DNA of 64,000 nucleotides from contig CM049306.1 of assembly GCA_026874595.1 (NCBI GenBank), forward strand, positions 11,615,019-11,679,018. Direction: 5' to 3'. The position numbers and the translations under genes are program-made. Origin of the DNA: Sipunculus nudus. Its lineage: Eukaryota; Annelida; Sipuncula; Golfingiida; Sipunculidae. How positions within the stretch are numbered: the stretch's first letter is position 1; every line of letters begins with the position of its first letter. Below are positions 20,501 through 58,700 of this stretch, piece by piece. The notes beneath the pieces were generated by a model, which was given only the letters and a program-made list of their open reading frames with translations, did not search any database and was not told where the DNA came from.

Positions 20501-23500
20501 ACAGCATGTTCACATATGGATTTAATCTGTTAAAATCTGAAATTTGAAAATAAAAGCTGCAAAATTAGGCTAGTTATTGATTTTTTTTGGAGGCTCTTGA
20601 TGTTTTCCCTTACATTGTCAAGCAGTCCACTTTGGTCACTGTAAGTCATTCAGTGCAGCTCTCTATGCTTCCCAGGCTCTTGTTATGTAATCCCATCACT
20701 GGGGCAAGCCCTCTCTCTTGCTGAGCTTGATCAGGCTCTCTGCAGTAAATACCACAGGGAGCCTTTCTCTCTCCCCCCCCCCCCCACCATTCTGTTGACA
20801 GGCCTATACTATAAATAAGCTGAATCTTAAAATTTCACATTTTTTTAGCAGTGAGCGGTAACAACAGAGACTCCTCCCCCCACTTACCCCTTCAGTACAC
20901 AGGACAAATAAACAAGAGAAATCTTCATGATAGTTTTAATGTTAAATTAATTCTTTTTGTTGAGACTTGGACAATTTTTATTTTTTTAAGAAAAAAATGT
21001 TCAGGAATTTAATCCTAATATTAAAATGTGATAAAATATTAGGATCTAATGTAAGTGCTAACTGACTAGATTTAAGTAGATATAAATACTTTGTAGCATT
21101 TCATTCATATCTTTTAAAGTTGGCTTGGCCTAGGTGTGAATAACACTGTTAAACTTAGTTTTAAAATCAGGAATATTGGTAAAGCTTTGTTGGATTAATT
21201 TTTAACTCATATGGCCTTATATTTAACTTTTTTAAAACTTAATTACCTTCACACATTATTTGTTTATAAAATGTAACTTTTATATAACACTTACTGTAGG
21301 CCCATTTTTTCCCTTGGTGCATCATTAAATGGTTTCAGGCCACAGGTTTCATTTATTACACAGTGCATATGCTTGAGCTCATGTCCAATGTTCTATAATT
21401 TACAGAGTTTCATTTTAGCAGGGCCATTTTCTTTTAGCTTTTCAAATTCTTATATACATGAAAAACCAAAAGAAATAAAAATGCAGCTGCTAATATTTTT
21501 CCAAAATTCAGCTGAGCGATGTGACCAATGGGTCCCTTGTTTTTTATTTTAAGTGACCTTAGATGATATAAAGAAATTTGTATTTGGTTCAGCATATTTA
21601 TATATAATGTTAACTATATTAACACCTTTGATTGAGTTCTACAATCAGACCATGAAAGGAAGATTTCATATTTTAAACCTGTAGTTACTTAAAAAATTTT
21701 CATGTGATGGATAAGCGCACACAGTTTGATAACTTTAGAACTATGCTGCTGTATCTCATAACATCAACTGCTTTAAATATTTAGTTGATATAAATAAGTT
21801 TATCATTATTGCGACCTTATATATTTTGCATTCTGGCTTGTTTCAGTGATTCCCTCCTGCTCCACAGTGAAGTGTCATAACAAGGCTATATGTACAGAGA
21901 GGTTCGGTGGCCAGGTCAATTGTACGTGTATGTATGGATACGAGGGGGATGGCTTCAACTGTACAGGTCAGTTCACTTAGTATGTCATCTTCATACAGCT
22001 CATAAAGTTCTTCACAATGTATATCAAAATGATGGTCAGTCCCTCAGGAATTATATAAATATATTTATGATCGCCCACACTGCTCAAAATCTCCTACCCA
22101 AGGGGGGGACTTTAACTATTACATTCATGTTTTCATCAGCCTTGGGATCAAACACAGTCATGCACAACCAGTCACTTGCTCTGTTCCCGTCAAGGTTTGA
22201 CAGACTACACAAGACATTCAATTGTGGGAAAAATTTTTTGGCCGAGGTTTATTTTGAAAGTACAATTATCAGATAATGAAAGATTGCAGTTTTTTATGCC
22301 CCATTCCTATTGACGGGAAGGTGGGGGACAATACGCCACTGGCCAAAGGCCCCCCCACCCAAGAGACTGGATGCTATTAAGGCTTTAAACTCCAATAACG
22401 CCCGCCAGGGCGCGCGTTTGTCACGGGCCTGTAGTTCAAAGGCGCCCGCCCGGGCGCGCTAAAGCCCATTTTACATACCCGTAATTGGGGCAAGTTTTGG
22501 GGGTGAAATGTCTATTGTCATCCATCATATTTGTACTTAAATGAAAGAGAAAAACGTCAAGTGTTGTTCTAACATGTGACCAAGATCCAAACTGGCGCGA
22601 ACGCAGACTTGTTGGAAAAATATAAAAATGATTGACTTTCACTCACGTGGCCTTGTTACGTGGGCCCTGGTAACATGTCGGCTGCGAGAGTAAAATCAGA
22701 CTCCTACGCTAAATTCATCAGAAATCGGTAAATTACCAAATGTTGGCAATCAATCCTGATGACAAAATCAAGTGCAGTGTGTTTACAGATTTAACTTCCG
22801 TTAAACATTTCCAAGATCATATATTATCCCCTTTTTTATTGGTTTAACTTGTGACCAATGATCGCCGTCCGACTGACTGACGCGTCTGACAGACACCACG
22901 CACGTGATCTGCGTGACCTCCTTACTGTGTCATGTACTGGCACTGGAAAACCATTTTTAACCGATATCATATAATAAAATGAGTATTTATTTTAAATATT
23001 AACATATTTTCTTAACTAAAAATCGAAGATACTGTCATATATCATGTCGTATATATATGTGATGTCTGATTGTTTACTAGTGATCATTTCTGTGCCAAAC
23101 ATTTTATCGTAATCGGGCACAAGAACTGTCAATCATTCTAAGAGGCTTTTTGGATTGAAAATAAAATTAATACCGTCTTAAATTAGAAACAGCCAGATAT
23201 TATAGAGATATAGTTAATTTTCCAGTGTAAAATATAAAGATAACTTTATACTCCATGAAATATTGAAGTAATTATTTTATGACGTACGTGGAACTGTACG
23301 CCTATACACCAAGATCCTTGAATATGTAAAACAAGACAGTAAGTGACTTATACGCTTGAACAAATATGTATTAATACGGTTTTAACACATACTGAACAGA
23401 TTTTACAAATTTTTATATGTGTAGTACTTCCTTTATATGTATAGGCTACATGTGTACGTGCACGTGTGCGCGCTTTTGTGTGTGTGTGTGTGTATATATA

Positions 23501-26500
23501 TAGGCCTATGTGCGTATTATAATTTTCATTAGTGATTGATAAAAGCACCAGTAATTGTCACTGCCAGTGAAACAGATTTTGGGCGGAGCTGCAAAACATC
23601 TTTAAATATATATGGCACATAGCAAACTAAATTTTAAAAATATAACCTATTATTATATGAATTGAAGTAAATAATTTTTTTTTTTGTAATACGTTTGCCT
23701 ATAACAGGCTATTCATTGTTGTAAGGAATAGTACTGCGTTATAAATGTTTGTACCTTTTAAACATAAAATCTGATCACTAATACCAGAACTTATAACTCC
23801 TTTTTATATTTCATCCATGAAAGTTTCTCAAATCGGGTTCATTCGCCGCCTATATTCATAAAAAATACATAACGTATACCGCAGACTGCATATATATCGC
23901 ATATACCGTACGTGCACCCGGTATAAACGCCGCTTTATATTGATATCGCTCTCAAAACCCAGTCAACGCTTGCATGCATGGCCCAGGGATTAAATATGGA
24001 AAATGTGTCGTGGTCATGATAATCCTTTAAAGTCATACGGCGGAGTCAGTCTCAGTCATGATACATGCAAGAAAATGAATAAAATGCATTCGCCAATCTT
24101 AAATTAGAAGCTATAGCGTATATATATAGTGACGGTGACACAGTGAAAGTAAAATATTAAGACCAAAGATGCGGACTTTCGATATGCATGCGCATGGTGT
24201 ATTCAAAATGACGATCGAGAAATCATGCAGGTGGACAAATTAGACTGAAATCTAATTGCACCTTTCCATTGCTGCAAAATAAGATTTAAAAGACGCAGGT
24301 ATACAAATATATCTATATTGCAAAATGTTTGATGGCTTTGTCTCAAACTTGCCCCTTTCGAAGACCTAAAATACCACAGGGTGTCGGCTTCTATTTTTAC
24401 CCACCGACCTTGTCATTTTCACGTTTGATTGACAGTTTTATTAGCACAAGGAAATTTTCCTATCACACAGAAGATTTTAGCGGAAAGACAGCACACGACA
24501 TGTGGCCAACCAGACGGGGATTCGGAGTGAAAATTACTAATTTAAATTGGCATCAATTACATTAATTATCAAAGGATAATGACATCATTTACAATGTTCG
24601 GGAACCGAACGACATGTATAATTGCCAGGTGTAGGTCATGGTCCGCGTCTCTACAGCTGACGGGACTGGTGAATACAAAATAAATAAATAAACAAACACC
24701 CAAGAGATCATAACTTATTAGAAGTTTTTGGAACATTCCAGGTGCTTCTTAAGAATTATTGAATTGTTGCTGCATATTGTTTTATAATTAACTGGAACTC
24801 TGCCTCTCCGTGAAATCACCATGCACCTTGCAGCCTGGGGAGACCGCATGCTTTCCTGCTAAAGCTGAAGTTTTATCAGCAGTGCATGATTTCTGACTAT
24901 ATGAGGGCCTAAATGTACAAAGTTGCATACGGAGGTTACCAGATTAGCTATATGATTTGAAGTTAGGTCTCGTGTATACATCTAGTTAACCAAGGAATTG
25001 TGCATCTCAAAATTATAAAATAAATTTCCTACTTTTCTTCAAGTGAAGTTGAATTAAATAAATGTAATTATATATTATATTTCCATTTTATATTAATTTC
25101 ATATGACGTAATTATGCTTCATTTAAATGTCACTGAAATAAAGTGCAAATTGAAGACCTGGATAAGTAAGTGCATGAAGATATGTAAGCCTACGAGCAAT
25201 TTTCCTCTAAGATACCAGAATGTACTGCTATGAAATCATAGTAACTAGGCATGATTTTGATAAGCATTGTTGGACTTACGTAGGCCTATATATTTGAATA
25301 ACTTAACATACATTAAAATGTACTGTGAAAACATGTTTCTTTGGTGTTACTTCACAGTTTAGTATCGTTTTCTCACGTTTATAAACTTTGGTATTATGTG
25401 CATTATCCCCAATAGCACATTTTAAAAACACCTTTTCAACAATAAAAAATATTGATTTTCCGTTATTTTATATTCTTGTTAATAACGATTTGTTTACATT
25501 AATGTGCATAGGCCTATTTATTATATATATGTAATAAATTATTGTTCCACTAGTACTACCAGTGTTTTCATTGTTTCTGATCCCTGCGGGAAAGAATCGA
25601 TTCTAATGCATACATATTGCATGACGTGAGAGGATGTTTCCAGGTAACTCCCCCCCCCCCCCCCCACCACCCCCACAAAAAAAAAAAGAATAATCAGACC
25701 GCCAGTCGGCACAGCATCTCATGATGCTTCTTATAATGAACACGCCAGACTCAGTCACGTGAACCATGTCCATTTAAAAGACTTTACAAAATAAACACGC
25801 CAGACCCAGTCACGTGAACCTTGCTGATGTAAAAGTAGATACGATTGGGTGAGAAAAGTTTGCAGCGTCAGTGCGTCACCGCTGGCTGAGGGATGACGCG
25901 GTAAAATTGGACCGTTCAGGAAAAAAACCCAAACAGACGTGTCGTCTTGCATCTTAATTGTCCAGTAAATGTTTTATTTATTTTTATTTTTTCGTTATAT
26001 TGACTAGATAGGATAATTCTGTGACTAAAGTCTGCAAAACCGCCTCGTTAATGTACCTTGTGTGCTATATATTGCTAAATTCACTCATTATCGCTCAATC
26101 ACCGTCAGCCGCGGAGGGGCGGTTACTTCAAAAGAAATTGCATGGATACCCTCAATTAAGAAAATAAGAGTTTTCACAAGTGCAAGACATATTTGTTTTG
26201 ATTTTTTATTTCAAATTTTAGTACATTCGCACTGTTTCGAATGGGAAAGATTTGGATATATCAACGTTTATTTAGGCTAATCGTTGATCGAACCAAGTGC
26301 ACACCTGTTTACCTGTCGCACCTGGATTTTTACAAGTGCAGATAAACGCGACAGACCAACTAAACAGCAATTTTATTATAGCATGAAATGTTAACAAACA
26401 GGGTAGACACATTTTTCCAGATTTTATTTTAAAATCAGTCGGCGATTTGTTTTTGCCTGCACATGTAAAAATATATTAATTTGACATAAAAAGGTATATT

Positions 26501-29500
26501 ACAGGTAACCAGATAATTAGTGCATTTCACACCCATAAATTATATATTTTGCACATTGGACAAAAGTAAATAGTTTTTATTGCAATGTCCCTTATAACAA
26601 GTATAATATATAATTTAAATTAAAAAAATGAGAATTTACCTTTATTTACCTGATCTTACCTGTGCAGGTGAGTAAACTTTTACAGGTAGAAATTGGCAAA
26701 ATTGAAATCCACAAGTCTCATGGCTGTGCAGTTAATTAAAAGATAGTTTCTGCATATTGTTTTAACTCCTTCAAAAATTTCCTCTCCACTTTTAAAATAA
26801 AAAGTTGTCTTTATATTCTGTACTTACAAAGGTAATTAAATCTGTTTAAGATCAAAGGTATCATTTCAGGTAACCCAATAAATAGTGCAGTTAGTACCTA
26901 TAATTCATAAATTTTACACATGGCACTCAAAATTAAGTTGTATTTTTTTTTCTCCCTTATTACATGTATAAAATATATACTTCATTAAAAAAATAATTTA
27001 CCTGTATTTACCTGAATTCACCTGTACAGGTGAATATGTTTTTATGTGTAACCGTAACCAAAATTATCAATTTATGTTTTACATGTCTGAAAAATCAAAA
27101 TATAATGGTTTTACACAGTTGACACTTGTTTATCCATATTCTTCTCAGCCACTTTTCAGCATGATTTTGTCACTGCCACAGGTAATTAGATCAGTTGAAG
27201 AACAAAGGTACTATTCACATAGGTAACTTAATTACTGTATTAAAAGCACCTGTTCTTATATCAAAATGAATTATACAGTCCATAAATAGAGAAGGTATTA
27301 ATTTATAGTAACTATATTGATGAACAAGGTGTTTGCTAACATATTCAGAAAAAAAAAATAATTTACCTTTACTTACCTGTACAGGTAAACATATGTGTTA
27401 TATGTTAATAATCATAGAATGTGCTCTTTGGGTCAGCAAGCTTTTCAGGTGAAAAATATTTGATTTCCACAGAAAAATCCAATTTACTTGCATATGCTGG
27501 TTCGTTGGTGGTTCCCTTTCCAGTATTAAACCAAATCATTTATCTTTTTCTTACCTTTAATTAATAATTACCTTAGAGTGAAAAAAAATCCTTACATTTC
27601 CCTTTTTTAATCAAAGGGTTAATGGGTTACCTGAACAGGATGAAAGGGGTCATTTTGGTGATATACCAGTGAGTGGAAATACAGTTAGTACAGATTTACC
27701 TGTTTTTACCTGTATATACCTTAGTTACATACTTATCAAACCAGGTATATAGAAAATAAATAAAATAACATGATGGACATATACCTGACAGTAAAAGCTG
27801 AAAATTTCACAAAGATACTTTTAACGGTTACTGAGTTAATGTCTCTTATATAGATTCATGTCAAAATGTGAAAAAAATGCAAAATAAATCTGAACAGTAG
27901 GAGTGTGACAATCCACAGGCTAATCTGAACAGTAAAGGGTTAAGAGACTTGCTGACATCCGTCTTAAGATTACCTTACTTACTGTAATTCCTGGTATGGA
28001 AGTATACTTGAGCTTAAACTCCGTGCCTGTAAAATACTAAAAGACAGCATTCAGACATTGACAAAAATAAACATGGTTCGTGTTAGAATGTTTTATTACT
28101 GGTCTGTATTGTTTTAACAAGCCTAATACGATATGGTGGTCCCGATAGATCAAAACAAACATAGTTTAGTTACTGAGACAGAATTATAACTTACTTCAAT
28201 TCAATGGCAGTCCCCACGGATCTGCCTGTATTATAAGACAGTTCATGTTAATTTAGGACAGTCCCCACGGATCCGCCCGTATTATAAGACAGTTCAAATT
28301 CAATTAGGACGGTCCCCACAGATCCATCCGTATCCTCAAACAGTTCGTGTCAAATTGAGCAATGTAGACAATGCCTTGTTGTCGTGCTGTTGTAGTGGAT
28401 CACCTCTTTGATAGCCCCTATCAATATAACAGTTAACCTACGATAACCATTAAATTCTGCAGATGGTCCCCACAGATCCATCTCTGACCCTAAACCTGTA
28501 GATGGTCCCCACAGATCCATCTCTAATTAGCATCCCCTGTAGATGGTCCCCACAGATCCATCTGTGATCCTAACCCTGTAGATGGTCCCCACGGATCCAT
28601 CTCTAATTATCATCCCCTGTAGATGGTCCCCACAGATCCATCTGTGATCTTAAAGCTGTAGATGGTCCCCACGGATCCATCTCTAATTAACATCCCTAGT
28701 AGATCTCTAATGTCTTGGCCACTGATCCCTATCACCTGTATGTGTCGGCACACCTGTAGCTGGTCCCCACGAATTCACCTCTAAAGAACAGTTTTTACAT
28801 TGGCAACTTAGAGGAATTTAACATTCAACTGAGCATTCATAATGCGTGAAGTCTTAAATAGCGCTTGAAAGCTTCCGTTTTCCAGCGCCCTAAATACCTT
28901 ATCTTGGCATCAGACATACCATTTGCTGCAGCCTCTGTGGCAGCTCCAATCCGGAAGCTGTGCCCCGAGTACTGTTTGGTGTCTAGACCTGCTGCTATCA
29001 GGTTGTCCTTTAAATTACGGTCAAAAGCTGATCTTGTGAAAGGGAAGCCTAAGGGGAGGGAGAACAATGGGCCCGGAGAGGCCCCTCGCAAACCTAGAAA
29101 TGCCTGCACGGCTTTAACAGGACAACATTCCTGTGCCTCTGAAATACTAATCACTGTAGGTATGCTGGGATCTTTGTTTTTGGAATTGTGTAATCTTATC
29201 CGCATGTGTGTTTGGTTTGAGACCCTCAAGAATGTCAAGTCAGAGATCTGAACAACTAGATCATTGCTGGATTTGTCCTTTGGTATCAATTCCCCTATCC
29301 TAAAGAACCCGTGGTAACTAGTCAAATAAACAGCTTTCATTAAGGCCTGTGAAAATTCGCTATTTATCATTAAAGGCATTGCCTTGATTAGCCTAATGAT
29401 GACAGATTTTGTGATTGGGTATCTTATGTCCACAGATGGACGCAATTTTTGAGCCCCAAGCAGTAATTTCTTGATGGCAAACGTGGCTGTGGGGTCAGGC

Positions 29501-32500
29501 AGGTCCCTGATTTTGTGAAAGTAGGAAATTGCTGATGCTGTGCTAGCCAATGAACTCCCGCAAATGCCCTTATCGAATCTATCTACGAGAAAGAGAAAGG
29601 TTGTGGATGGTGCTACGGGGTAGCGTGCCCATCCTGAATGGCCTAAGTTTCTGCAAAATTCCTCTAATTGTTGCCATGCTCGTTGATAAGACGTCCTGGT
29701 AGTTTTGGCTAAGCTATTGTCAATCAGGTATTTACCTAGGTCTGTCAAGTGAGAGACTTTGGCACTGGAGGCATTGGTCGAGGGCATTGGTCCATGTAAG
29801 GTGCCAATCTCCGGAATGTGGACACCAAATGGTAACGGGACCTCATTCAGAGCCAAAGCGCTTTGCTGTGCACTTGACGATGGTCTCAACTTGGCCAGCT
29901 TAGCGTCAATTCTGTCGTCTATTTCTTTTGACAAGTTATCTATTTTCTTGTCAAGCCTCTCAGCAACACTGTCAATTTTGGCTGTCAGTCTGTTGACTAA
30001 TGCCTCTACAGCCTGGCTGGGTATCGAGGCTTCAGTGCTTGCGTGCTCTTCTGTGCTGTTGCTAGAGGATCCCCGTGCAGTCCTCCGTCTTTTCGCTGGT
30101 GGTGGTGATGGACTGGCTCCATTACCAGTTGGGTTAGACAGCCTATATCTGGCTGGGGCCCTAGTTGCACGTCTCCTCATACTGAAACAGCCCAATCTCG
30201 CTTGATTACTGACATGAACAATCAAACCATGAACGACTTGACGAAAAAACCTTTAACCCTTTGCTAGAAAAGCACACTTCGAACTTGAGACAAGTGCTTT
30301 TTGCTCTCATTAAATGAAACTTGAAACTTATCAATCTGTGGGACCTTAAACAGTGTCCCATTAATTTGTTAACTGTACTTGAAACAAGTGTACATTTTAT
30401 TTGTAAACAGACCCCTGAACCTAGAAACAAATGTCAATTCTATTTATTCAAAGACACATGAAACTTGAAACAAGCGCCAATTTAATTTTGTTAAGTGCAC
30501 TTGAAACTTGAAACAAGTGCATGTATTTATTTATTTAAAGACACTTGAAACTTGAAACAAGCTCCTATTTATTTTTGATAATTGCACTTGAAACTTGAAA
30601 CCAGTGCGTGTTATATTTATTTTAAGACACTTGAAACTTTAAACACGCGCCAATTTAATTTTGTTAAGTGCACTTGTAACTTGAAACAAGTGCATGTATT
30701 AAAATTTTGTGTGGCCATCATAAAAAAATTATCCACTGTTGGGGGAGTAATTTCATGTATTTATGTAATTCCATTGACGATGGTATGTATAATCCTTGAA
30801 TTGATTTAATTACTTTATATGGATCAGATTATTTACAATTCACTTTCATTTACCGAGTTAAACTTTTATCTTGATATAATGGCCAGGAGACAATGATTGT
30901 ATATATTTGTGTTTTAGTGATTGACATGTGTGAGAGAGGTCTGAGTGACTGCCATAGAGACTCAGTGTGTATATTCACTGGTCCAAGAAGCTATCGCTGT
31001 CACTGTAAGACTGGTTTCCGGGGAGATGGCAAAGTATGTTCCCCTGTTAATCCATGCCAGACTAGAAATGGAGGTTGTCCTGAAGAAACTACAAATTGTG
31101 TGTACACTGGGCCTGGCATTGTAAGAACTTATCTCTAATACCATTTTCCATCATCCTCAGACACATATGATGCACCTGTTTTTTTTTCAATAGTTCTTCT
31201 TATATGTCAGAGAAGGAAATTAATTCCAGTTATATATTAAGGGAAAATAAGGGATTGTTACATATTTGTTAATCTATGGTGTCAGTGATTAGGCAATTTA
31301 ATTACTGGTTTAACTAAATGTTTAGTTTCATGCACCAGAATAGGACTAAATGTCATGAAATATGACAGCAACCTATGAATGTTAAAATGCTGGTGAACAA
31401 TTGTTAAATCTATGTTATACATTCTTGATAAGCAATAGATATTGTTTGTTCTGCTCTGTTTTTGACATATTTATGACTAATATTACTGTCTTTTATTTAT
31501 TTGTATAAGAATCATATCATCTTCCACTCACGAGAAATTAACTGAGTGTCATGTAGTCTCAAGTATAACTTAATTTTGAGTAATCCTAAAAAAAAATCTC
31601 ATATTTTCACCAATTTTCATTTTTCAAGATTGAAGTGTCTGGTTTGTTACAAGTATAACTGAGAAAAGTTTGTGGAAAATGGTTGAGTAAATATTACTGT
31701 CAAGTGAAATAAATCTCCTGAAGGTTTAGCATTTGGAATGTTCTCTGTTTCATGTGAGTGTACCTTGCTGACAAGAGGTTTTAATATTTTGATGCTTGCT
31801 TACAGAGGAGGTGTGAGTGTATAGAAGGTTACCAGAACTTCACTGAAGGAAGTGGTTGTATCCTGACTGACCTCTGCCCTGTAAACGGCAGCGTGTGCCA
31901 TAATAATGCCAACTGTACCACAATAGGGCCTGACCAGATCAAGTGGGTCCTTTAAATTACTTAAATATATAAACATTTTTCTGTCAAACTCTGCCAATTT
32001 GTCCATATCAAATATAATATTCTATATTACAAGATCTCACTTATTGCCAGGAGGTTGTAAACACAAGCTGTAAGGGCTTTTAAAACCATTAAATTCGCTT
32101 TCTTACACAAAATTCTGTTGACTACATTTGTTAAATATTGACTTTTGTCAGGAATCATCATTTCATGATGTGTTGTTTCAATCAAAGTATTATTAAATCA
32201 GCCCCTAATAACATTTCTGTATTATATTTTCATAATTTATTGAACAATATTTACATATAAAATGCAAGTAGGAGTTGGTTTTTAAATGATCAAATGATTC
32301 TGATGACTGAAAAGTAGGTTTTTAATTGTTATATATTTTTCAGTTGATACAGTTGTCTCTACTCCACAGGTGCACATGTATGGAAGGGTATGCAGGGGAT
32401 GGCAGGATGTGCTATGGCAATGTTCTAGAGGTAAGATCATGGCTTTTGTGATATATAAAGCTTTCATTTAAATTTAACATTGAGCTTAGATATAACATTT

Positions 32501-35500
32501 GTGTGTACATACCACAAACATAGAGTTGTAATCTAGGTAATAGAAAGCCATGTTTTGCAAACTTTGTTATTAACATTAACAAACCAAAGTTCTGCGAAAC
32601 TTTGTAGGATAAATGTCTTTGTATTATAAAAAAACAAGTTTTGGTGAATGATAACATGGTATATACATCTCTGCTTTATTTAACAGTAATAATAGGCAGT
32701 GAGTGTAAAATATATATTATTCATCAAATATTGAAATTTTTTTATAGTGCATGTTCTTTAATTGGCCTTAAAGATGAATGTCCAAATGCTTCTTTCAGCA
32801 TTGTTTGACCATTTAGCTATTGACATAGTATTAATAATTGATCATTATAATTATGAAGCAGCATGGTCAGTTGAATTTCCTATGGGAGATTCAGTTGATT
32901 TCATATTACGTTAGAACTTTTATTGCAGGAACTGAAAAGAGCAAACACTGAGATTCCGCAGTTAAAGGGACAGCTGTTCAAGATGATATCCACCCTGGAG
33001 TACACGTATGGAGACAATATAACCCAGCACGGGCCTTTCACAGTTTTTGCTCCAACCGATGGAGCATTTTATAGAAACCTAGACAGTGATGAGGTTTGTT
33101 AAGAAATATTTATGAGATCAATTTAGGACTTGTTTCTTATTTCATATACAGATAGACATCTTTAAGGTAGCACCCTTTTTCATAAACAATCAAAATGTCA
33201 TTTAGAATTAATATCCACTTATAAATTGTACATAATTTTAAACCTAGTACAGTGTTTGTGTTTATGGTATTTTTTATTCATATATTTTAATTTTTCAATA
33301 TTTTCATATATTTTAAGAATTTTATCAATATTAAACTACATGGCTATCTCAAATTGGATTTCTTTTGTTGTTTCAATTACCTTGTGTCTTTCTTGTTTCA
33401 GAATTAAATTTATTTTTTTTTCATATATATTCTTTCATATATTTGAACAATTTTATCAATATTTAACTACATGACTCTCTCAAAATGGTTTTCTTTTGTT
33501 TTTTCTTTACCATGTGTCTTTCTTGTTCATGAAATAAATTTAATTTTTTTATGTAATTTTTTTTATTTCAAAGGTAGATAGTAACTCAATACAGAAAAAC
33601 ACATTAAAAAATGGTTTTGAGATATTGTCAAATAGTTTGACATTAATCAACTTTCGGATTGATTTTATATATATGGGTTTTGCACAGCATAACTTAAGGA
33701 TGGTTATTTAACAGATTTTCATATATGGATTCAGCTTTTCAGATGTTGTATACAAATGTATTTAATCAATATATGTTTTAATTTTTTATTGAAATTTACC
33801 TTAAATTTGCGTATGCTATAAATTTCAGGTGCTTAACTAATTATGTTACTTATTGAGATCTCTGTGTTGGAACTTCCTAGGTAGCATGTTATGTTATAAT
33901 ACTGTACTAATAATGAATTTAAATGATGTGATTATTTCAGTTGTACATGTTTGATTGTAGATGTCAGCCTTACTCGCCAACAAGACATTCTCCCGTCAGC
34001 TGATGCGGCAGCATCTGATTCCGATACAAACACAAATCAGTGACCTGTCCAACGATACCGTCCTGTACACTCTTCAAGGAATTAGAATGGTCATATCTGT
34101 CATACAGGCAAGTAATAAACTTTGGAGTATGTTGTTACAATAAGGCTTAACTGTAAAAATGACATTTTGCAAGAATAAATGAAAACAGTGTTAAATAATG
34201 AAGAGAGATATTCTTTTTACCTTCAGCAAGAAGCAGGTAAGTTGTATGAGCATTTAGTTTGATTAGCTTGTATTGTCCCATAATTTGCCAGTAATCTAAA
34301 TATCCTTATTGCCTCTGCCAGGTAGGGTATGCATTCATTCCATTTATTGCTTGCCGGAAATCTTCGATTTCAGCAAGCATATTAGTCAGTTCTGTATGTC
34401 CATTTCTTTGTTTGTTTGGTTTTTAGCTCAGCTGACTATAAGTCATCTGAGCTATAGTCGTGGTCCATTGTCTGTCGTCCGTCCGTCCGTCTGTCCGTCT
34501 GGATGTCCGTCCCTAAGACTGGCACGTTTCGACACCGTTCGACCTAAGAATCTGAAATTTGGCATACTGTTAGATGTCCCCAAAATCTCCTAACATGCCA
34601 AAAATTGGGTCAATATGACTTTGTTCCTTCGAGATATTAAGGAAAAACCTCAATTTTTTATTAGAAATCTTATTTTCACACTTCAGGACTGCCTAATATC
34701 AAAACCACTCATCTGGTTTCTTCATTTTTACCATAAATATTCCTCTATATGGTTCCTATGTACAGGCCAGAAATTTAGTCAGAATTATTTAATTTAAAAA
34801 AGTTATGGGCCCAAATATAATGGACTTTGTAAAAAAATGAAGAAAGATATTTTGTCACTTAAGACCAAAAGTGTTAAAGGTAGGAATTTTTTTTTCAGTA
34901 ATACTACTTTAAATAATCAAAATTGAATTGTATACCAAAAATTAGATCAAAATCTGTTAAATTGTTTTAAATATTGGCAAAAATATAAAATTTGTACCTT
35001 AAATTTTGCCCAAGTTTGACCATGGCACGTTTTTTTCCTGTAACTGCTGTGGATTTAATTTTCAAAGCATGTTTTTGTTACCATTTCAACTGTTAAAACA
35101 AAAAATTTGAAACCAGTTGATAAAAACTGTAGATGTTTATTCAAGTTTTAAAGCACCATGTCATATATTGTTTACACCAAGCTAGTGTTATGCAGTTTAC
35201 TAGAGCTCAGCTCCCCAGCTTCAGCTCTAACTTCCTTAAATTTTGCAAACAGTTAGATGTCCCCCAAATCCTCTACCATACTAAACGTTTGGTCACTAGG
35301 ACTGCATTCCTTGGAGATATTAAGAAAAAACTTCATTTTTAGCTCAGCTGACTGAAAGTCATCTGAGCTATAGCGATCACTCTTTGTCCGTCGTCCGTCT
35401 GTCTGTCCGTCTGTCTGTCCGTTAACCAGGCACAAATCGTAACCGCTAGAACTGGAATCTTCTTACTTGACATCCTGGGAGGTCCATGAAAAATCTCCTT

Positions 35501-38500
35501 GGAAACCAGAAATTAGGTCTCTGTTACCCATATCCTTCGAGCTATGGGGCCCAAAAGTACCCCCAGAAAAGTCCAAAGTTTTATATAAAAACTTCAATAT
35601 CTCATTAACTACTTGACTGATGGTCATGATTTTTGGCATACATATTGATCATGAGAGGTTCCATCAGTTCCTGAAGACTGGTGGCGCCACCTGTATTTTT
35701 CGATTTTTTATGAATTTTTTTCTCTATTTTTGAGACCTTTAAAAATGTGAACATCTGTTAACAAGGCACAAATCGTAATGACTGGACTTAGAATCTTCAT
35801 TCTTGACACACTGAGAGACCTATGAAAAGTCTCCATGGAAACCAGAAATTAGGTCTCTGTTACCCATATCCTTCCAGCTATGGGGCCCCAAACTACCCCC
35901 CAGAAAAGTAAAAAATTTCAAACAAAAACTTCAATATCTCATTAAATACTTGACTGATGGTCATGATTTTTGTCATACATATTGATCATGAGATGTTCCA
36001 TCACTTCCTGCAGACTGGTGGCGCCACCTGCATCGTTCAATTTTTTACGAATTTTTTTCTCTATTTTTGAGACCTTTCAAAATGTAAACATGTGTTAACA
36101 AGGCACAAATCGTAAAGACTGGATCTAGAATCTTCATTCTTGACACACTGAGAGACCTATGAAAAGTCTCCATGGAAACCAGAAATTAGGTCTCTGTTAC
36201 CCATATTCTTTGAGCTATGGAGCCCCAAATTACCCCCAAGAAAAGTAAAAAATTTCATACAAAAACTTCAATATCTCATTAACTACTTGACTGATGGTCA
36301 TGATTTGTGGCATAACTATTGATCATGAGATGTGTCATCACTTCCTGCAGACTGGTGGTGCCACCTTTATTGTTCGATTTTTTACGATTTTTTCCTCTAT
36401 TTTTGAGACCTTTAAGGATGCTGTCATCTGTTAGCATGGCACAAATCGTAACGACTGGACCTAGAATCTTCATTCTTGACACACTGAGAGGTCCATGAAA
36501 AATATCCTTGGAAACCAGAAATTAGGTCTCTGTTAACCATATCCTTCGAGCTATGGGGCCCCAAAGTACCCCCCCCCCCCAGTAGTCAAAAATTTCATAC
36601 AAAAACTTCAATATCTCAATAACTACATCACTGATGGTCATGATTTTTGGCATACATATTGATTATGAAATGTTCCATCAGTTCCTGCAGACTTGTGGCG
36701 CCACCTGTATTGTTTGATTTTTTACAATTTTTTCCTCTTTTTTTGAGACCTTTAAGGATGCTGTCATCTGTTAACGTGGCACAAATCATAACGACTGGAC
36801 CTAGAATCTTCATTCTCGACACACTGAGAGACCTATGAAAAGTCTCCATGGAAACCAAAATTAGGTCTCTGTTACCCATATTCTTTGAGCTATGGAGCCC
36901 TAAAGTACCCACAAGAAAAGTAAAAAATTTCATACAAAAACTTCAATATCTCATTAACTACTTGAATGATGGTCATGATTTGTGGCATAACTATTGATCA
37001 TGAGATGTGTCATCTGTTCCTGCAGACTGGTGGCGCCACCTGTATCGTTCGTTTTTTTATGATTTTTTCCTCTATTTTTAGCTCAGCTGACTGAAAGTCA
37101 TCTGAGCTATAGCGATCACTCTTTGTCCGTCTTCCATCTGTCTGTCTGTCTGTCCGTCTGTCTGTCCGTTAACCAGGCACAAATCGTAACCCGCTAAAAC
37201 TGGAATCTTCTTACTTGACATCCTGGGAGGTCCATGACAAATCTCCTTGGAAACCAGAAATTAGGTCTCTGTTACCCATATCCTTCGAGCTATGGGGCCC
37301 CAAAGTATCCTCCAGAAAAGTCCAAAATTTCATACAAAAACTTCAATATCTCATTAACTACTTGACTGATGGTCATGATTTGTGGCATAACTATTGATCA
37401 TGAGATGTGTCATCACTTCCTGCAGACTGGTGGTGCCACCTTTATTGTTCGATTTTTTACGATTTTTTCCTCTATTTTTGAGACCTTTAAGGATGCTGTC
37501 ATCTGTTAGCATGGCACAAATCGTAACGACTGGACCTAGAATCTTCATTCTTGACACACTGAGAGGTCCATGAAAAATATCCTTGGAAACCAGAAATTAG
37601 GTATCTGTTAACCATATCCTTCGAGCTATGGGGCCCCAAAGTACCCCCCCCCCCCCCCCCCGAGTAGTCAAAAATTTCATACAAAAACTTCAATATCTCA
37701 ATAACTACATCACTGATGGTCATGATATTTGGCATACATATTGATTATGAAATGTTCCATCAGTTCCTGCAGACTTGTGGCGCCACCTGTATTGTTTGAT
37801 TTTTTACGATTTTTTCCTCTATTCTTCGAGCTATGGAGCCCTAAAGTACCCCCAAGAAAAGTAAAAAATTTCATACAAAAACTTCAATATCTCATTAACT
37901 ACTTGAATGATGGTCATGATTTGTGGCATAACTATTGATCATGAGATGTGTCATCTGTTCCTGCAGACTGGTGGCGCCACCTGTATCGTTCGATTTTTTA
38001 CGATTTTTTTACGACCTTTAAGGATGCTGTCATCTGTTAGCATGGCACAAATAGTAACGACTGGACCTAGAATCTTCATTCTCAACACACTAGAAGATCT
38101 ATGAAAAGTCCCCATGGAAACCAGAAATTAGGTCTCTGTTACCCATATCCTTCGAGCTATGGGGCCCCAAAGTACCCCCCCAGAGTAGTCAAAAATTTCA
38201 TACAAAAACTTCAATATCTCAATAACTACATCACTGATGGTCATGATTTTTGGCATACATATTGATTATGAGATGTTCCATCAGTTCCTGCAGACTGTTG
38301 GCGCCACCTATGTTATCTATCAAGAGGGTACAAATTGCAACAACTGGACCTAGAAACTTCATTCTTGTCATGCAAGGAGGCCCATGAAGAGTGCCTGTGG
38401 AAACTTGAAATTAGGTCTCTGTTACCCATATCCTTCAAGCTATAGGACTCTGAAGTATCCCTCAGAATAATGGACAATTTGATACAAAAGCTGAAGTATC

Positions 38501-41500
38501 TGAACAACTAATACCGAGATCATCATGATTCTTTGCATGGATATTGACCATTAAGTGTTTTTAGCTCAGCTGATTGTAAGTCATCTGAAGTATCCCTCAG
38601 AATAATGGACAATTTGATACAAAAGCTCAAGTATCTAAACAACTATTGCAGTGATCACCATGATTCTTTGCATGGATATTGATCATGGAATGTGTCATCA
38701 GTTTCTGCAGTATGGTGGCGCCACCTGTATTTTTAGCTCAGCTGACTGAAAGTCATCTGAGCTATAGCGATCACTCTTTGTCCGTCGTCCGTCTGTCTGT
38801 CCGTCTGTCTGTCTGTCTGTCTGTCCGTCTGTCCGTTAACCAGGCACAAATTGTAACCGCTGGACCTAGAACCTTGTAACTTGGGATTCTGAGAGGTCCA
38901 TGAAAAATCTCCTTGGAAACCAGAAATTAGGTCTCTGTTACCCATATCCTTTGAGCTATGGGGCCCCAAAGTACCCCCCAGAAAAGTAAAAAATTTCATA
39001 CAAAAACTTCAATATCTCATTAACTACTTGACTGATGGTCATGATTTTTGGCATACATATTGATCATGAGATGTTCCATCAGTTTCTGAAGACTGATGGC
39101 GCCACCTGTATTTTTTCGATTTTTTACGAATTTTTTTCTCTATTTTTGATACATTTAAAAATGTGAACATCTGTTAATAAGGCACAAATCATAAAGAATG
39201 GAACTAGAATCTTCATTCTCGACACACTGAGAGACCTATAAAAAGTCTCCGTGGAAACCAGAAATTAGGTCTCTGTTACCCATATCCTTCGAGCAATGGG
39301 GCCCCAAAGTACCCCCCAGAAAAGGAAAAAAATTTCATACAAAAACTTCAATATCTCATTAAATACTTGACTGATGGTCATGATTTTTGGCATACATATT
39401 GATCATGAGATGTTCAGTCACTTCCTGCAGACTGGTGGCGCCACCTGTATCGTTCAGTTTTTTACGAATTTTTTTCTCTATTTTTGAGACCTTTCAAAAT
39501 GTGAACATCTGTTAATAAGGCACAAATCATAAAGAATGGAACTAGAATCTTCATTCTCGACACACTGAGAGACCTATAAAAAGTCTCCGTGGAAACCAGA
39601 AATTAGGTCTCTGTTACCCATATCCTTTGAGCAATGGGGCCCCAAAGTACCCCCCAGAAAAGGAAAAAAATTTCATACAAAAACTTCAATATCTCATTAA
39701 ATACTTGACTGATGGTCATGATTTTTGGCATACATATTGATCATGAGATGTTCCGTCACTTCCTGCAGACTGGTGGCGCCACCTGTATCGTTCAGTTTTT
39801 TACGAATTTTTTTCTCTATTTTTGAGACCTTTCAAAATGTGAACATCTGTTAACAAGGCACAAATCGTAAAGACTGGACCTAGAATCTTAATTCTTGACA
39901 CACTGAAAGGTCCATGAAAAATCTCCTTGGAAACCAGAAATTAGGTCTCTGTTAACCATATCCTTTGAGCTATGGGGCCCCAAAGTACCCCCCAGAGTAG
40001 TCAAAAATGTCATACAAAAACTTCAATATCTCAATAACTACATCACTGATGGTCATGATTTTTGGCATACATATTGATTATGAGGTGTTCCATCAGTTCC
40101 TGCAGACTGGTGGGGCCACCTGTATTGTTCGATTTTTTATGAATTTTTTCTCTATTTTTGAGCCCATTCAACCTTCAGACTGACATATAGTTTTACCCAT
40201 GTCCATCCTTCTGTCATTCTGTCATTCTGTGATTCCGAAATCAAACAGTTGTACGGACTTTTTTTCGCAATGCCTGCAGATATTGGCCTGATTTTTGGTG
40301 TGTGGGCAGATAATGACCAGTTACAGATCGAGTTCGCGTTTCGTCCCGGTTGATCTACTTTTGACCGTTTTACAGCTCCTAAACTTAGAAAAATTCATGA
40401 AAAATAGAAATTTTCCTGACAATTATACACATGTACGGACTTTTTTTCGCAATGCCTGCAGATATTGGCCTGATTTTTTAAGTGTGGGCAGATAATGACC
40501 AGTTACAGATCGAGTTCGCGTTTCGTCCCGGTTGACCTACTTTTGACCGTTTTACGGCTCCTAAACTTAGAAAATTTCAAGAAAAATAGAAATTTTCATG
40601 ACAAATACACATGTACGGACTTTTTTTCGCAATGCCTGCAGATATTGGCCTGATTTTTGTGTGTGGGCAGATAATGACCAGTAACAGATCGAGTTCGCAT
40701 TTCTTCCCAGTTGACCTACTTTTGACCGTTTTACGGCTCCTAAATTTAGAAAAATTCATTAAAAATAGAAATTTTCATGTCCGGTGTCTGTCTGTCCGTC
40801 CTTTCCGCGTGTGTTAACCTTTTACCTTGTGAGCGGGATATCTCTAAAAGGATTCACCGTTGGAATTTTATTTCATCAGTGAAGATGTATATCGATAAAA
40901 TCTCGGTCAAGTTCAAAGATGGGTGACCTTTCTACATTTTAGAGCTGATATAGAAAAACACTCAGAAGTTTATATCTCAGGAACCATTGTGTGGATTTTC
41001 ACAAAACTTACGATGATCATTGGGACTGATGGTCTGTATGTGCTGCACAATTTTGGTGGCGCCACCTGCAATTTCTGATTTTTTAATGAAATTTTATCGG
41101 ATTTTTTCAATTTTGGCCTTTTGTGCAGGATATCTCCAAAGGTATTCAACACAGGAACTTCATTTCTTCAGTGCTATTGCATTATATTTACAATATCTTG
41201 GTCAAGTTCAAAGATGGGTGATCTTGACCTACTTTTCAAGGTCACAGAGCTTAGAAAAAAACTTAGAAGCTTATTTCTCAGGAAGCATTTGGTGGATTAT
41301 TATGAAACATGGTATATACCTCTCCAATTTAAATTTATAAATGATTATCAACTTTTGCTAATTTTCTAGTTTCGCAATGCAATGCTTACAGATACTGGCC
41401 TAATGTTTGGTCTGTTGGCGCATAATGACCACTTACAGATCGAGTTCGCGTTTCGTCCCAGTTAACCTATTTTTCACCATATGACAGATCCTGAACATAG

Positions 41501-55700: not shown

Positions 55701-58700
55701 ACCACTGATCTGTTTTTGGTCATATTTAGTATTCATATTCTTCCATACATTTTCTATGGACTTCCCATAAATTTGGTCAGTATTGTTTATTGTTTTGAAG
55801 TTATGGGCCCAAATATAATGCAATTTTTTAAAAATCAAGAATTATATTTACTCACTTTATAATCATGAGAATTGCTGAAGCTGGAGACTTTTTTGCAGGG
55901 ATATAACTTTATTTTATCAAGATTCAATTGTTTACCCAAAATTAGATCTGAATTTTGCAATTTTTTTAAGTTATTAGTAAAAATAAAAAATCAATACCTT
56001 AAATTTTGTCTTACTTTGATTACGGCAGGTTTTTTCCCTGTAAGCACTGTTGATTTAATTTTCACAGCATATATACATAAGGATTTATTTCTGAAATTTC
56101 AAAGGAATTGATTGAAAAGAGAAGCTTTTATTCAAGTTTTCATACACCATGTCAAGTGTTGTTTACATCAAGCCCACCTAGTAGTACAGCCTTCACTCAA
56201 GGCAGCTTGCCTTGGCTCAGCTTGGCCACTACTTCCCCTCTGCCCTGTACACCCCCCCCCCCCTCCCCCAGCTGGTGCATAAACTAGATGAATGTTATAA
56301 TTTTCTGTATTTGATTCATTCTTATTCTAGGCTATGCTACATTTTAAATTTGTTTTTGTACCACCAGGGTTACAATGATTAAAGTACACATTTAATTGTG
56401 TCCACAAAATGATGTATTGCTATGAAAGTTGATGATCATCAGATAAGTAATTCCTTACTTCAGAGGAGTAAAAACTTCACCAGGTGTGAAATTGACTGTT
56501 AATTCCAGTAATAAATTATAGCTGAGATAATAATCAGTACAATGATATTGTTTGTCCTTCATTCAACCAACAGAGTGTATTCCTTTTTTTAAAAGATGTT
56601 TTTATTTTATCAGTTTTAATGAATCTTTTATTTTGGTGAATAAAATTAAGCATGTCATTTATTACTGGAATTAACTACAATGTACAAAAACTTTTTAATA
56701 GTGATTCAAGGAATAATCTTAAAGATGCCATGTTGTGGCATTATTTTCTTTTAAATTCAGTTGAAACATTTGTGATTTAAAATTAATAAAATATGTGTAT
56801 GCATAATATGACCCAATATGAGCTTCACTCTGGATAAATAATGATTGCAACTTAGAATTCTGATATTTAACCTATATTTTCAGATTTTTTTTTACAAATT
56901 TATATAACTTGTAAATAAAAAAATGAATCTGATAAAAACTATTAATGGAAAAAGTGGATTTGCTAAAAAAATAGGGTTTAATATGAACTTAAATGCATTA
57001 TTCCCTTGAAAGTGAAATAAAGGTATTAGTCCATTCTGTTCACTTGCCTGTCCATCTGTAAATTTTTCATATGCATCACAGTATCTCAAAACATTCTGTT
57101 TTTCTTCATGACAGTCTTGTAAGAGTATTAGTTTTGCAATCATATATTTAGAACCTTACTATAACCAAGAAGGAGGGCCTCTTTCCTCTTTAACTTCTCA
57201 TATGATTATATATATGAAAAACATTACAATAGAATAATTTACATATGCAAAAATTTCAAATTGCAGCTGAGTGCAGTGACCCATTGGTCCCTTGTTTTCT
57301 CTATTTTTGAGACCTTCAAAGAAGCAGTTGTCTATTAACCAGGCACAAATTGTAACCACTGGACCTAGATCTTTCAACTTCACATCTAGCAGGGTCCCTG
57401 AAAAATCTCCTAGGAAACCTGAAATTAGGTCTCTGTTACCTATATCCTCTAAGTTATGGGGCTTATAAGTAGCCCCTAGAATAATTAAAATTTAATAAAA
57501 GAGCTCCAGTATCTGAACAACTAATGCATTTATCACCATGATTCTTTGCATGCATATTCATTATGAAGTGTTTCATCAGTTCCTGCAGAATGGTGGCACA
57601 ACATTATTTTTTTTTTTAATTTTTAGACATTTTTTCTCTTTTTCTGTGACCTTAAAAGATGTGGTTGTCAGTAAACAGGGCACAAATTGTAACCATTGCA
57701 CCTAGAATCTTCTAACTTGACATCCAGGAAGGTCAATGAAAAAGCTCCTAAGATACCTTACATTACGTCTCTCTTGCCCATATCCTTCCAGCTAAGCTTC
57801 AGTTGAATGGGGTTACTACCTACAAAATTTGGCATTCAGATGATAAAATTCCTTTTGTGAATGTCTTCTTTGTCAGTTGAGTGTCATGACCCATGGGTCA
57901 CTTGTTTTTAAGATGACACAGCTGACCCAGGTGTTATCAGGGCCGGGACCTTACACCGTGTTCTCCCCAAACAACGGAGCATGGGCCAAGCTGCCACCAG
58001 GAGCACTCCAGCATCTCATGTCTCCAGAGGTAAAAAAAGTCCATATTGCCTGTTCCGTTAATATTACACAGGGGTGTTTTCCGTTTTCCTGTTGGTTTAA
58101 TCTTCCCTGATTGAAATGTCATGTATCCAATTGATTATCATCAATAATCAGACAGCTGTGAGAAGGATACAGTTTTAAATTCAATGTTATGCATTTATTA
58201 TTACATTATAAATCTTACTTTTGATTTGCATATATTTATAAAATGTATTTAAGTTATATAAAAAAAATACCAACATGTGAAAATGGTAAAAATGTACAGT
58301 AAAATATGTAAAAAGCAGTCAGAAAATGTAATATTGTTTGATTTGTAAGATGTTAGTTTTCATAACATTGAACTTTTTATCTGAATGTTTGTTCTTTTGC
58401 TGTCTTTCCAGGGTCTGCCTAAGCTCAAATCTATTGCCAAAGCCCACATTATACAAGGGAGAGAGGTAATGTCACTTAGTAATCAGAAGCATTTAGATAT
58501 TTATTTTCCTTATTTTTAAATGAAGTTTTTGAAAGTTGAGTAGTTTAAATAAATTTGAAAACTATTTTTGATTGTATGAATGATGAAATGAAATAAAAAA
58601 ATAAAAAGTGTTATCTCAGTGAGTTACCATTAAAATATTGAAAAAAAAGAAAAGTAGAAGGAACATTGGGTGAGTAAAAATTCACAGATAGATTAAAAGT

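Follow-up and report, generated by a model that had tools for sequence, protein, structure and literature searches.

The window analysed here, a stretch of 64,000 nucleotides from the Sipunculus nudus genome (contig CM049306.1, positions 11,615,019 to 11,679,018; C1:11615019-11679018 in the genome searches), contains a tyrosine recombinase (YR) gene on the reverse strand, flanked by two arrays of short dyad repeats. The gene belongs to a single open reading frame (ORF) at 28837-30225, which has 462 codons if counted from a TTG and 447 if counted from the first ATG at position 30180. The original prediction treated the whole ORF as a recombinase. This is not the case, because the first ~118 residues are the N-terminus of a Gag protein, fused in frame to the YR that makes up the remainder. 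The Gag part is basic at its beginning and then heptad-like, as judged by eye. When the protein is aligned with five YRs from bacteria and phages, the residues R294, K334, H407-x-x-R410 and Y441 show no variation, and W433 is common to the window protein and the two phage YRs. The Pfam Phage_integrase model matches the ORF with an E value of 1.7e-4, which is under the gathering score. Two reverse transcriptases (RTs) of YR retrotransposons, used as queries, gave no match below E 2 in the window; the two queries match each other at E ~1e-84. In the sense direction the features are arranged as follows, where the C3 copy is the sister element described below.

30270..30700 (approximate), reverse strand: right array, 5' of Gag, roughly 8-10 dyad units with 43/44-bp spacing
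29826..30180, reverse strand: Gag N-terminus, putative exon 1 of the fused ORF, 94% amino acid and 96.3% DNA identity to Gag of the C3 copy
29825..29826, reverse strand: fusion junction, the site of a 2,155-bp intron-like segment in the C3 copy, with GGTG common to both ends
28837..29825, reverse strand: tyrosine recombinase up to the stop codon, putative exon 2; 96.9% DNA identity to the C3 copy
28206..28790, reverse strand: left array, 3' of the YR, 10 hairpin/dyad units with the core TCCCCAC (sense GTGGGGA)

Two unit types alternate in both arrays, giving super-periods of 80 and 87 bp. The 15-mer core of the left array (up to 3 mismatches allowed) has 11 matches in the window, 10 of them inside the array, where 0.86 would be expected, and none of 100 shuffles reached 11. 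For the right array core there are 7 matches against 0.01 expected (0/100 shuffles). The alignment and these counts confirm an intact YR ORF, complete with catalytic residues, between two dyad-repeat arrays, and the lack of an accompanying RT was predicted correctly as well. About ten copies per array, a period near 40 bp and two alternating types had also been described, and this stands for the left array, with its 10 units, and approximately for the right one. The distances to the gene needed correction. The left array ends ~46 bp past the YR stop codon, not ~65 bp, and the right array begins ~90 bp 5' of the first ATG, not ~50 bp, its edge being ~45 bp 5' of the TTG.

The nature of the locus is revealed by comparison with a sister copy. 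The genome (1.43 Gb, 153 contigs) was searched with positions 28200-30710 of the window, and a copy on contig C3 (stretch L036) matched at 95% over the first 1,641 bases and, after an extra segment of 2.1 kb, at 91% over the rest. In this copy the two halves of the ORF are separated by 2,155 bp that comprise the rest of Gag and an RT/RNase H region. The sense order is terminal repeat A1, a GDSL/SGNH hydrolase, the right array, Gag, RT/RNase H, YR, the left array, B1, A2 and B2, with the hydrolase ORF lying between A1 and the right array. The Gag ORF is 383 amino acids long from stop to stop and has a CCHC-like cluster (identified by eye), the RT ORF extends from RT/RNase H into an overlap with the YR, and the YR itself is interrupted by a frame break. 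Pfam recognized the hydrolase (GDSL, E 3.6e-10), the RT (RVT_1, E 3.4e-14) and RNase H (E 1.8e-4, under its cut-off), and no methyltransferase was matched among the three C3 ORFs scanned. The repeats are direct and are arranged as A1...B1-A2-B2; the A pair is 770 bp long and 97% identical, the B pair 281 bp and 99.6%, with 240 bp between A2 and B2.

As described in PMC9210276 and PMC8547959, from which the definition was taken, Ngaro elements combine RT/RNase H and YR with split direct repeats in the order A1...B1-A2-B2 and have no methyltransferase. The C3 copy shares this plan, including Gag, a hydrolase ORF and the absence of a methyltransferase match, and the element is here classified as Ngaro-like by its layout and domain content. 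The window copy, in contrast, retains just the first 60 bp of A and a single B, and does not carry RT/RNase H together with the YR. The hydrolase is 5' of Gag in the C3 copy, whereas a position 3' of the YR is reported for amphibians. Two internal hairpin/dyad arrays, conserved splice-like sites between gag and the YR, and a copy without RT are further differences. DIRS-like elements have inverted terminal repeats, an internal complementary region and a methyltransferase, but the C3 copy has direct terminal repeats and gave no methyltransferase match. PAT-like elements combine split direct repeats with a methyltransferase, and the C3 RT ORF gave no match to this domain.

In the stretch between Gag and YR, what is missing from the window copy is exactly the 2,155 bp that run, in the C3 copy, from a G/GTGAGT donor-like site in gag to a polypyrimidine-CAG/G acceptor-like site at the end of RNase H (slashes mark the cuts). 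The C3 copy reads CATCTG/GTGAGTGC on the gag side and CCCTTTCTCGTTCCCAG/GTGTCC on the YR side, and the window copy reads CATTTG/GTGTCC, its junction coinciding with the donor and acceptor positions within the limits of the shared GGTG. Comparable segments at C2:96.7M, C1:110.6M and C10 are 2,136, 2,063 and 2,105 bp long, and at all three, as in the C3 copy, removing them would keep the frame, phase 1 being joined to phase 2. A G/GTGAG in phase 1 occupies the homologous place in gag at seven of the seven loci examined (six if the C2 and C1 copies are counted as one), and reads GTGAGT at five of them and GTGAGG at two. The GGTGAGT is identical at five loci within surroundings (45 nucleotides on each side) that are 22-33% identical between families and 93% identical in the close pair C2/C1, although the donor place at these five was first located by eye and the motif served as the alignment anchor. 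When the test was extended to further loci, C2:6.22M was found to have its sole GGTRAG within 2.85 kb at the homologous place in phase 1, and the same is true of the sole GGTRAG within 601 bp at C13:27.7M. The acceptor is present at six loci.

A second fusion exists in the genome. The YR search listed 95 matches (94 of 706 candidates were scored), and just two of those listed extend across both ORF halves: the window and C3:12.80M (L066, C3:12798500-12801500). L066 is 32% identical to the window protein and contains the end of a hydrolase, followed by a Gag-like N-terminus and a YR whose frame is broken late in the gene; no RT was matched in its 3.0 kb. Its N-terminus matches the Gag of C2:6.22M (35% identity, E 9e-15), and this match ends at base 540, one base ahead of the G/GTGAGG donor of C2:6.22M. 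Two other YR matches, C9:75145495 and C3:33669642, have open frames of 780 and 619 amino acids, unusually long among the matches listed, and are possibly other fusions.

An integrated spliced RNA is the most likely origin of the window copy, because its junction matches the intron-like segment, the donor is present in seven of seven loci and the break in the second fusion is located at the corresponding point. By the same token, the YR is probably expressed via splicing. The element RNA would be alternatively spliced, with the spliced form serving as a Gag(N)-YR fusion mRNA for the recombinase and the unspliced form yielding Gag and RT. Occasionally a spliced RNA would be reverse transcribed and inserted, giving rise to copies such as that in the window. 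In retroviruses, splicing of the env-type RNA takes out an internal gag-pol segment, and the downstream protein is expressed. The scheme proposed here would be analogous, but the proteins and the integration enzyme are different, and the splicing is deduced from DNA. The loss, in frame, of a segment bounded by GT-AG is what would be expected of an integrated spliced RNA. Introns or splicing find no mention in PMC3266345, PMC3783388 and PMC9210276, the word 'intron' occurs twice in PMC8547959, and the words 'spliced' and 'splicing' in PMC4157794 are unrelated. Neither a spliced Gag-YR RNA nor arrays of this kind were met in the literature consulted, which also included parts of PMC3212892, PMC3537659, PMC6681497, PMC8547959 and PMC2632668; the founding Ngaro papers lay outside its scope. 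Overall, there are good grounds for regarding the locus as a Ngaro-like YR retrotransposon in an RT-less version that arose from reintegrated spliced RNA, with the YR made through Gag(N)-YR splicing and the arrays acting in cis.

The arrays accompany the element, as had been predicted. The left array is found within ~430 bp 3' of the YR in the window and at every one of five further YR loci retrieved to examine this point. Overall it is 3' of the YR in 6 of 7 copies examined, the exception being the distant copy L066, where the 450 bp 3' of the YR contain no array core and one core-like site is located 5'. The right array is 5' of Gag in the window, in the C3 copy (~36 copies according to Tandem Repeats Finder, TRF) and at C13:50.4M, and C2:96.7M has in this place 51 copies of a 38-bp array of unlike sequence. 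Thirteen YR-less loci were fetched by means of the left array, and 9-10 kb of each was examined. All 13 carry the 43-bp array, for which they were selected, and 12 have an adjoining 39-bp array of 4-119 copies; no element gene (YR, RT, Gag or hydrolase) was matched in any of the 13 at E 1e-3. An A1...B1 A2 B2 frame encloses the arrays at C1:110.63M and L054, L048 and L055 have one repeat pair of ~260 bp, and the remaining nine loci show neither in the stretches examined. The 39-bp arrays next to the left array reach at least 100 copies at L043, L044 and L055. These 13 loci are read as non-autonomous derivatives of the element, and since derivatives in which no gene was detected still retain the arrays, mobilization in trans probably requires them.

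The arms of the left units vary in step from family to family (AGATGG/CCATCT, GGATGG/CCATCC, ACTTGG/CCAAGT) around a constant core. The core TCCCCAC-GAT was the search anchor, and its constancy is thus set by choice, within one mismatch. Across 18 loci, 103 distinct left units were compared, and 455 of their 618 arm cells are Watson-Crick paired, compared with a mean of 376 and a maximum of 403 in 1000 shuffles, which take no account of relatedness. These properties suggest cis-acting hairpin or dyad sequences that would participate in the handling of RNA or single-stranded cDNA, or in protein binding, and the arrays would then represent a recognition signal. It is possible, although not what we favor, that they are double-stranded DNA binding sites, such as an enhancer or clusters bound by YR or Gag, and not RNA or single-stranded DNA hairpins. 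A dimer of fixed specificity would not need arms that co-vary, but template-switch correction of quasi-palindromes could likewise produce such co-variation. G.U pairs agree with double-stranded sites, as they show no strand preference among the 103 units (sense strand alone, 58 cells; other strand alone, 49). For the latter reason strand-specific RNA hairpins, considered at one stage, are not claimed: the bias present in the window, where 94.4% of left array cells pair on the sense strand and 85.2% on the other (87.5% and 75.0% for 8 units of the right array, out-of-register units excluded), vanishes in the larger set. Folding of the array stretches gave z-scores between -0.8 and -3.4 for either strand, as expected of arrays of near-palindromes. 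A role as YR core sites was rejected because the dyads of the two arrays have arms of different length and different spacing, and neither end of the element falls inside an array.

The RT/RNase H region might instead have been lost through an ordinary microhomology or template-switch deletion that fell by chance on GT...AG, with no regulated splicing. Several observations weigh against splicing, the first two of them also in favor of such a deletion. GGTG is common to both ends of the segment, which makes a microhomology deletion possible, and in the 5' part of the window copy there is another deletion, which lacks splice signals. There, the sequence jumps from the first 60 bp of A directly into the right array; this is a deletion with AATA microhomology, and a second intron was rejected since there is no GT. 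The acceptor overlaps the RNase H motif ALSRSQ and its conservation is therefore partly coding; the C13:27.7M acceptor has a weak pyrimidine tract, that of C4:20.46M is damaged, and L011, an element from another source described below, has ALSRDDL in the equivalent place (by eye). A search for GTRAGT in two distant families (C2:6.22M and C13:27.7M) gave nothing, and only the relaxed GGTRAG found their donors. The C10 copy has a frame shift in Gag just 5' of the donor, and stop codons follow the acceptor by ~70 (C1) and ~50 (C10) codons. With regard to the arrays, none was seen 5' of Gag in the C1 and C10 copies, and the left array is present in all 13 YR-less loci by construction. Nevertheless, an ordinary deletion appears improbable: its breakpoints would have to fall on a near-consensus donor and a polypyrimidine acceptor with the frame preserved, the donor is present at seven of seven loci, and L066 breaks at the same place.

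The original prediction envisaged a distinct compact element with a YR as its only enzyme and the arrays as recombination sites, that is, an autonomous new type beside Crypton. The intact ORF, the arrays and the existence of L066 as another RT-less Gag-YR copy are in its favor, and, as in Cryptons (PMC3212892), the YR is the sole enzyme of the window copy. However, Cryptons are YR-only DNA transposons of an RT-less lineage. The window copy differs from them by its lost RT, its Gag N-terminus, its A/B repeat ends and the absence of DUF3504 among the Pfam matches. The sister copy has RT/RNase H between the ORF halves and Ngaro-type split direct repeats, both halves of the ORF occur in just 2 of the 95 matches listed, the two arrays have arms of unequal length and unlike spacing, and it is at A and B, outside the arrays, that the element terminates. 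A fragment of a DIRS-order element had been named beforehand as the finding that would speak against a YR-only element, and this is in essence what was observed, RT being absent in the window and present in the sister copy. The YR-only explanation is thus highly improbable.

The nearest relatives also carry RT. A search of genome contigs with the window protein alone gave no match, and with the alignment it gave 18 loci. The closest relatives found outside the S. nudus genome are L010, from an Escarpia endosymbiont record (YR 35% identity, E 8e-58), and L011, from record AqS3, which we take to be a sponge symbiont (28-29%, E 5e-22). Both have RT/RNase H directly 5' of the YR (Pfam was run for L010 alone), and, unlike the window copy, no array of ~40-bp units was detected by TRF in the short flanks examined. 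Although deposited as bacterial metagenome-assembled genome records in GTDB, L010 and L011 are probably animal retrotransposons from host contamination. In a tree of 26 rows (window residues 131-447; L003, a chance match, and the fragments L013 and L025 excluded) the window YR and L010 form a group (99/96), which L011 joins next (100/99); a long-branch warning applies. The tree thus places the window YR among RT-bearing elements. The viral contigs gave one chance match, no relative and no array core; two of them have YRs that fall with bacterial YRs in the tree. A YR gene domesticated by the host can hardly be entertained, for although the frame is open, the catalytic residues are present and the 29 YR differences from the C3 copy are split 12/4/13 by codon position, element ends and arrays still surround the gene and a mobile sister has diverged by 3-4%.

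The window copy is an insertion with recognizable ends. Its 5' end is ATGAAATTACTC, common to A1 and A2 of the C3 copy, and its 3' end is GGGCGATCATAA, common to B1 and B2 and terminating in the GATCATAA end of B. The remaining features are as follows.

22065..30756, reverse strand: entire retrotransposon insertion, including a later nested insertion, with the 5' end at 30756 and the 3' end at 22065
30697..30756, reverse strand: first ~60 bp of terminal repeat A, 95% identity to A1 of the C3 copy
28092..28097, reverse strand: sense-strand AATAAA, the sole one from the stop codon to 27000
27940..28205, reverse strand: remainder of the 3' region, as far as the TTAA of the later insertion; C3 homology stops at 27940 and resumes near 22380
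22065..22380, reverse strand: terminal repeat B, single copy, 93.2% identity to B1/B2 of the C3 copy

Two ATTAAA follow beyond the AATAAA on the sense strand. The left array and 3' part are 93.3% identical to the C3 copy. The remainder of A1, the hydrolase ORF, A2 and a second copy of B were not found in the window. The nested insertion of 5,559 bp (22381-27939), located inside the 3' part, has TTAA on each side and looks like a TTAA-target transposon. The surroundings include an EGF exon (30875-31135) and fasciclin matches at 57847 (above the cut-off) and 53327 (below it), and the animal gene around the insertion is one that we infer to be stabilin-like. Tandem satellites with a unit of ~338 bp occupy 35421-37079 and 38889-40171 within this host gene region. 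Rfam gave zero matches at the gathering score and no tRNA was found in the window.

Taken jointly, the data leave room for a Ngaro-type lineage in which the YR exists only as a spliced Gag-YR fusion, spliced genomes are reintegrated as a recurrent class without RT, and co-varying hairpin arrays at both ends would serve as recognition signals and, together with the split repeats, be enough to mobilize gene-less derivatives; the whole of this picture is possible, and is put forward with reserve. To our knowledge, recombinase expression and the required cis signals of YR retrotransposons are poorly known. A conserved pair of splice-like sites between gag and YR, along with a fossil of its product, makes the expression of the YR directly testable. 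The arrays, which persist in gene-less derivatives with arms that co-vary around the core, are a pointer to the cis signal. The case also illustrates how a seemingly new YR-only element may arise out of a retrotransposon.

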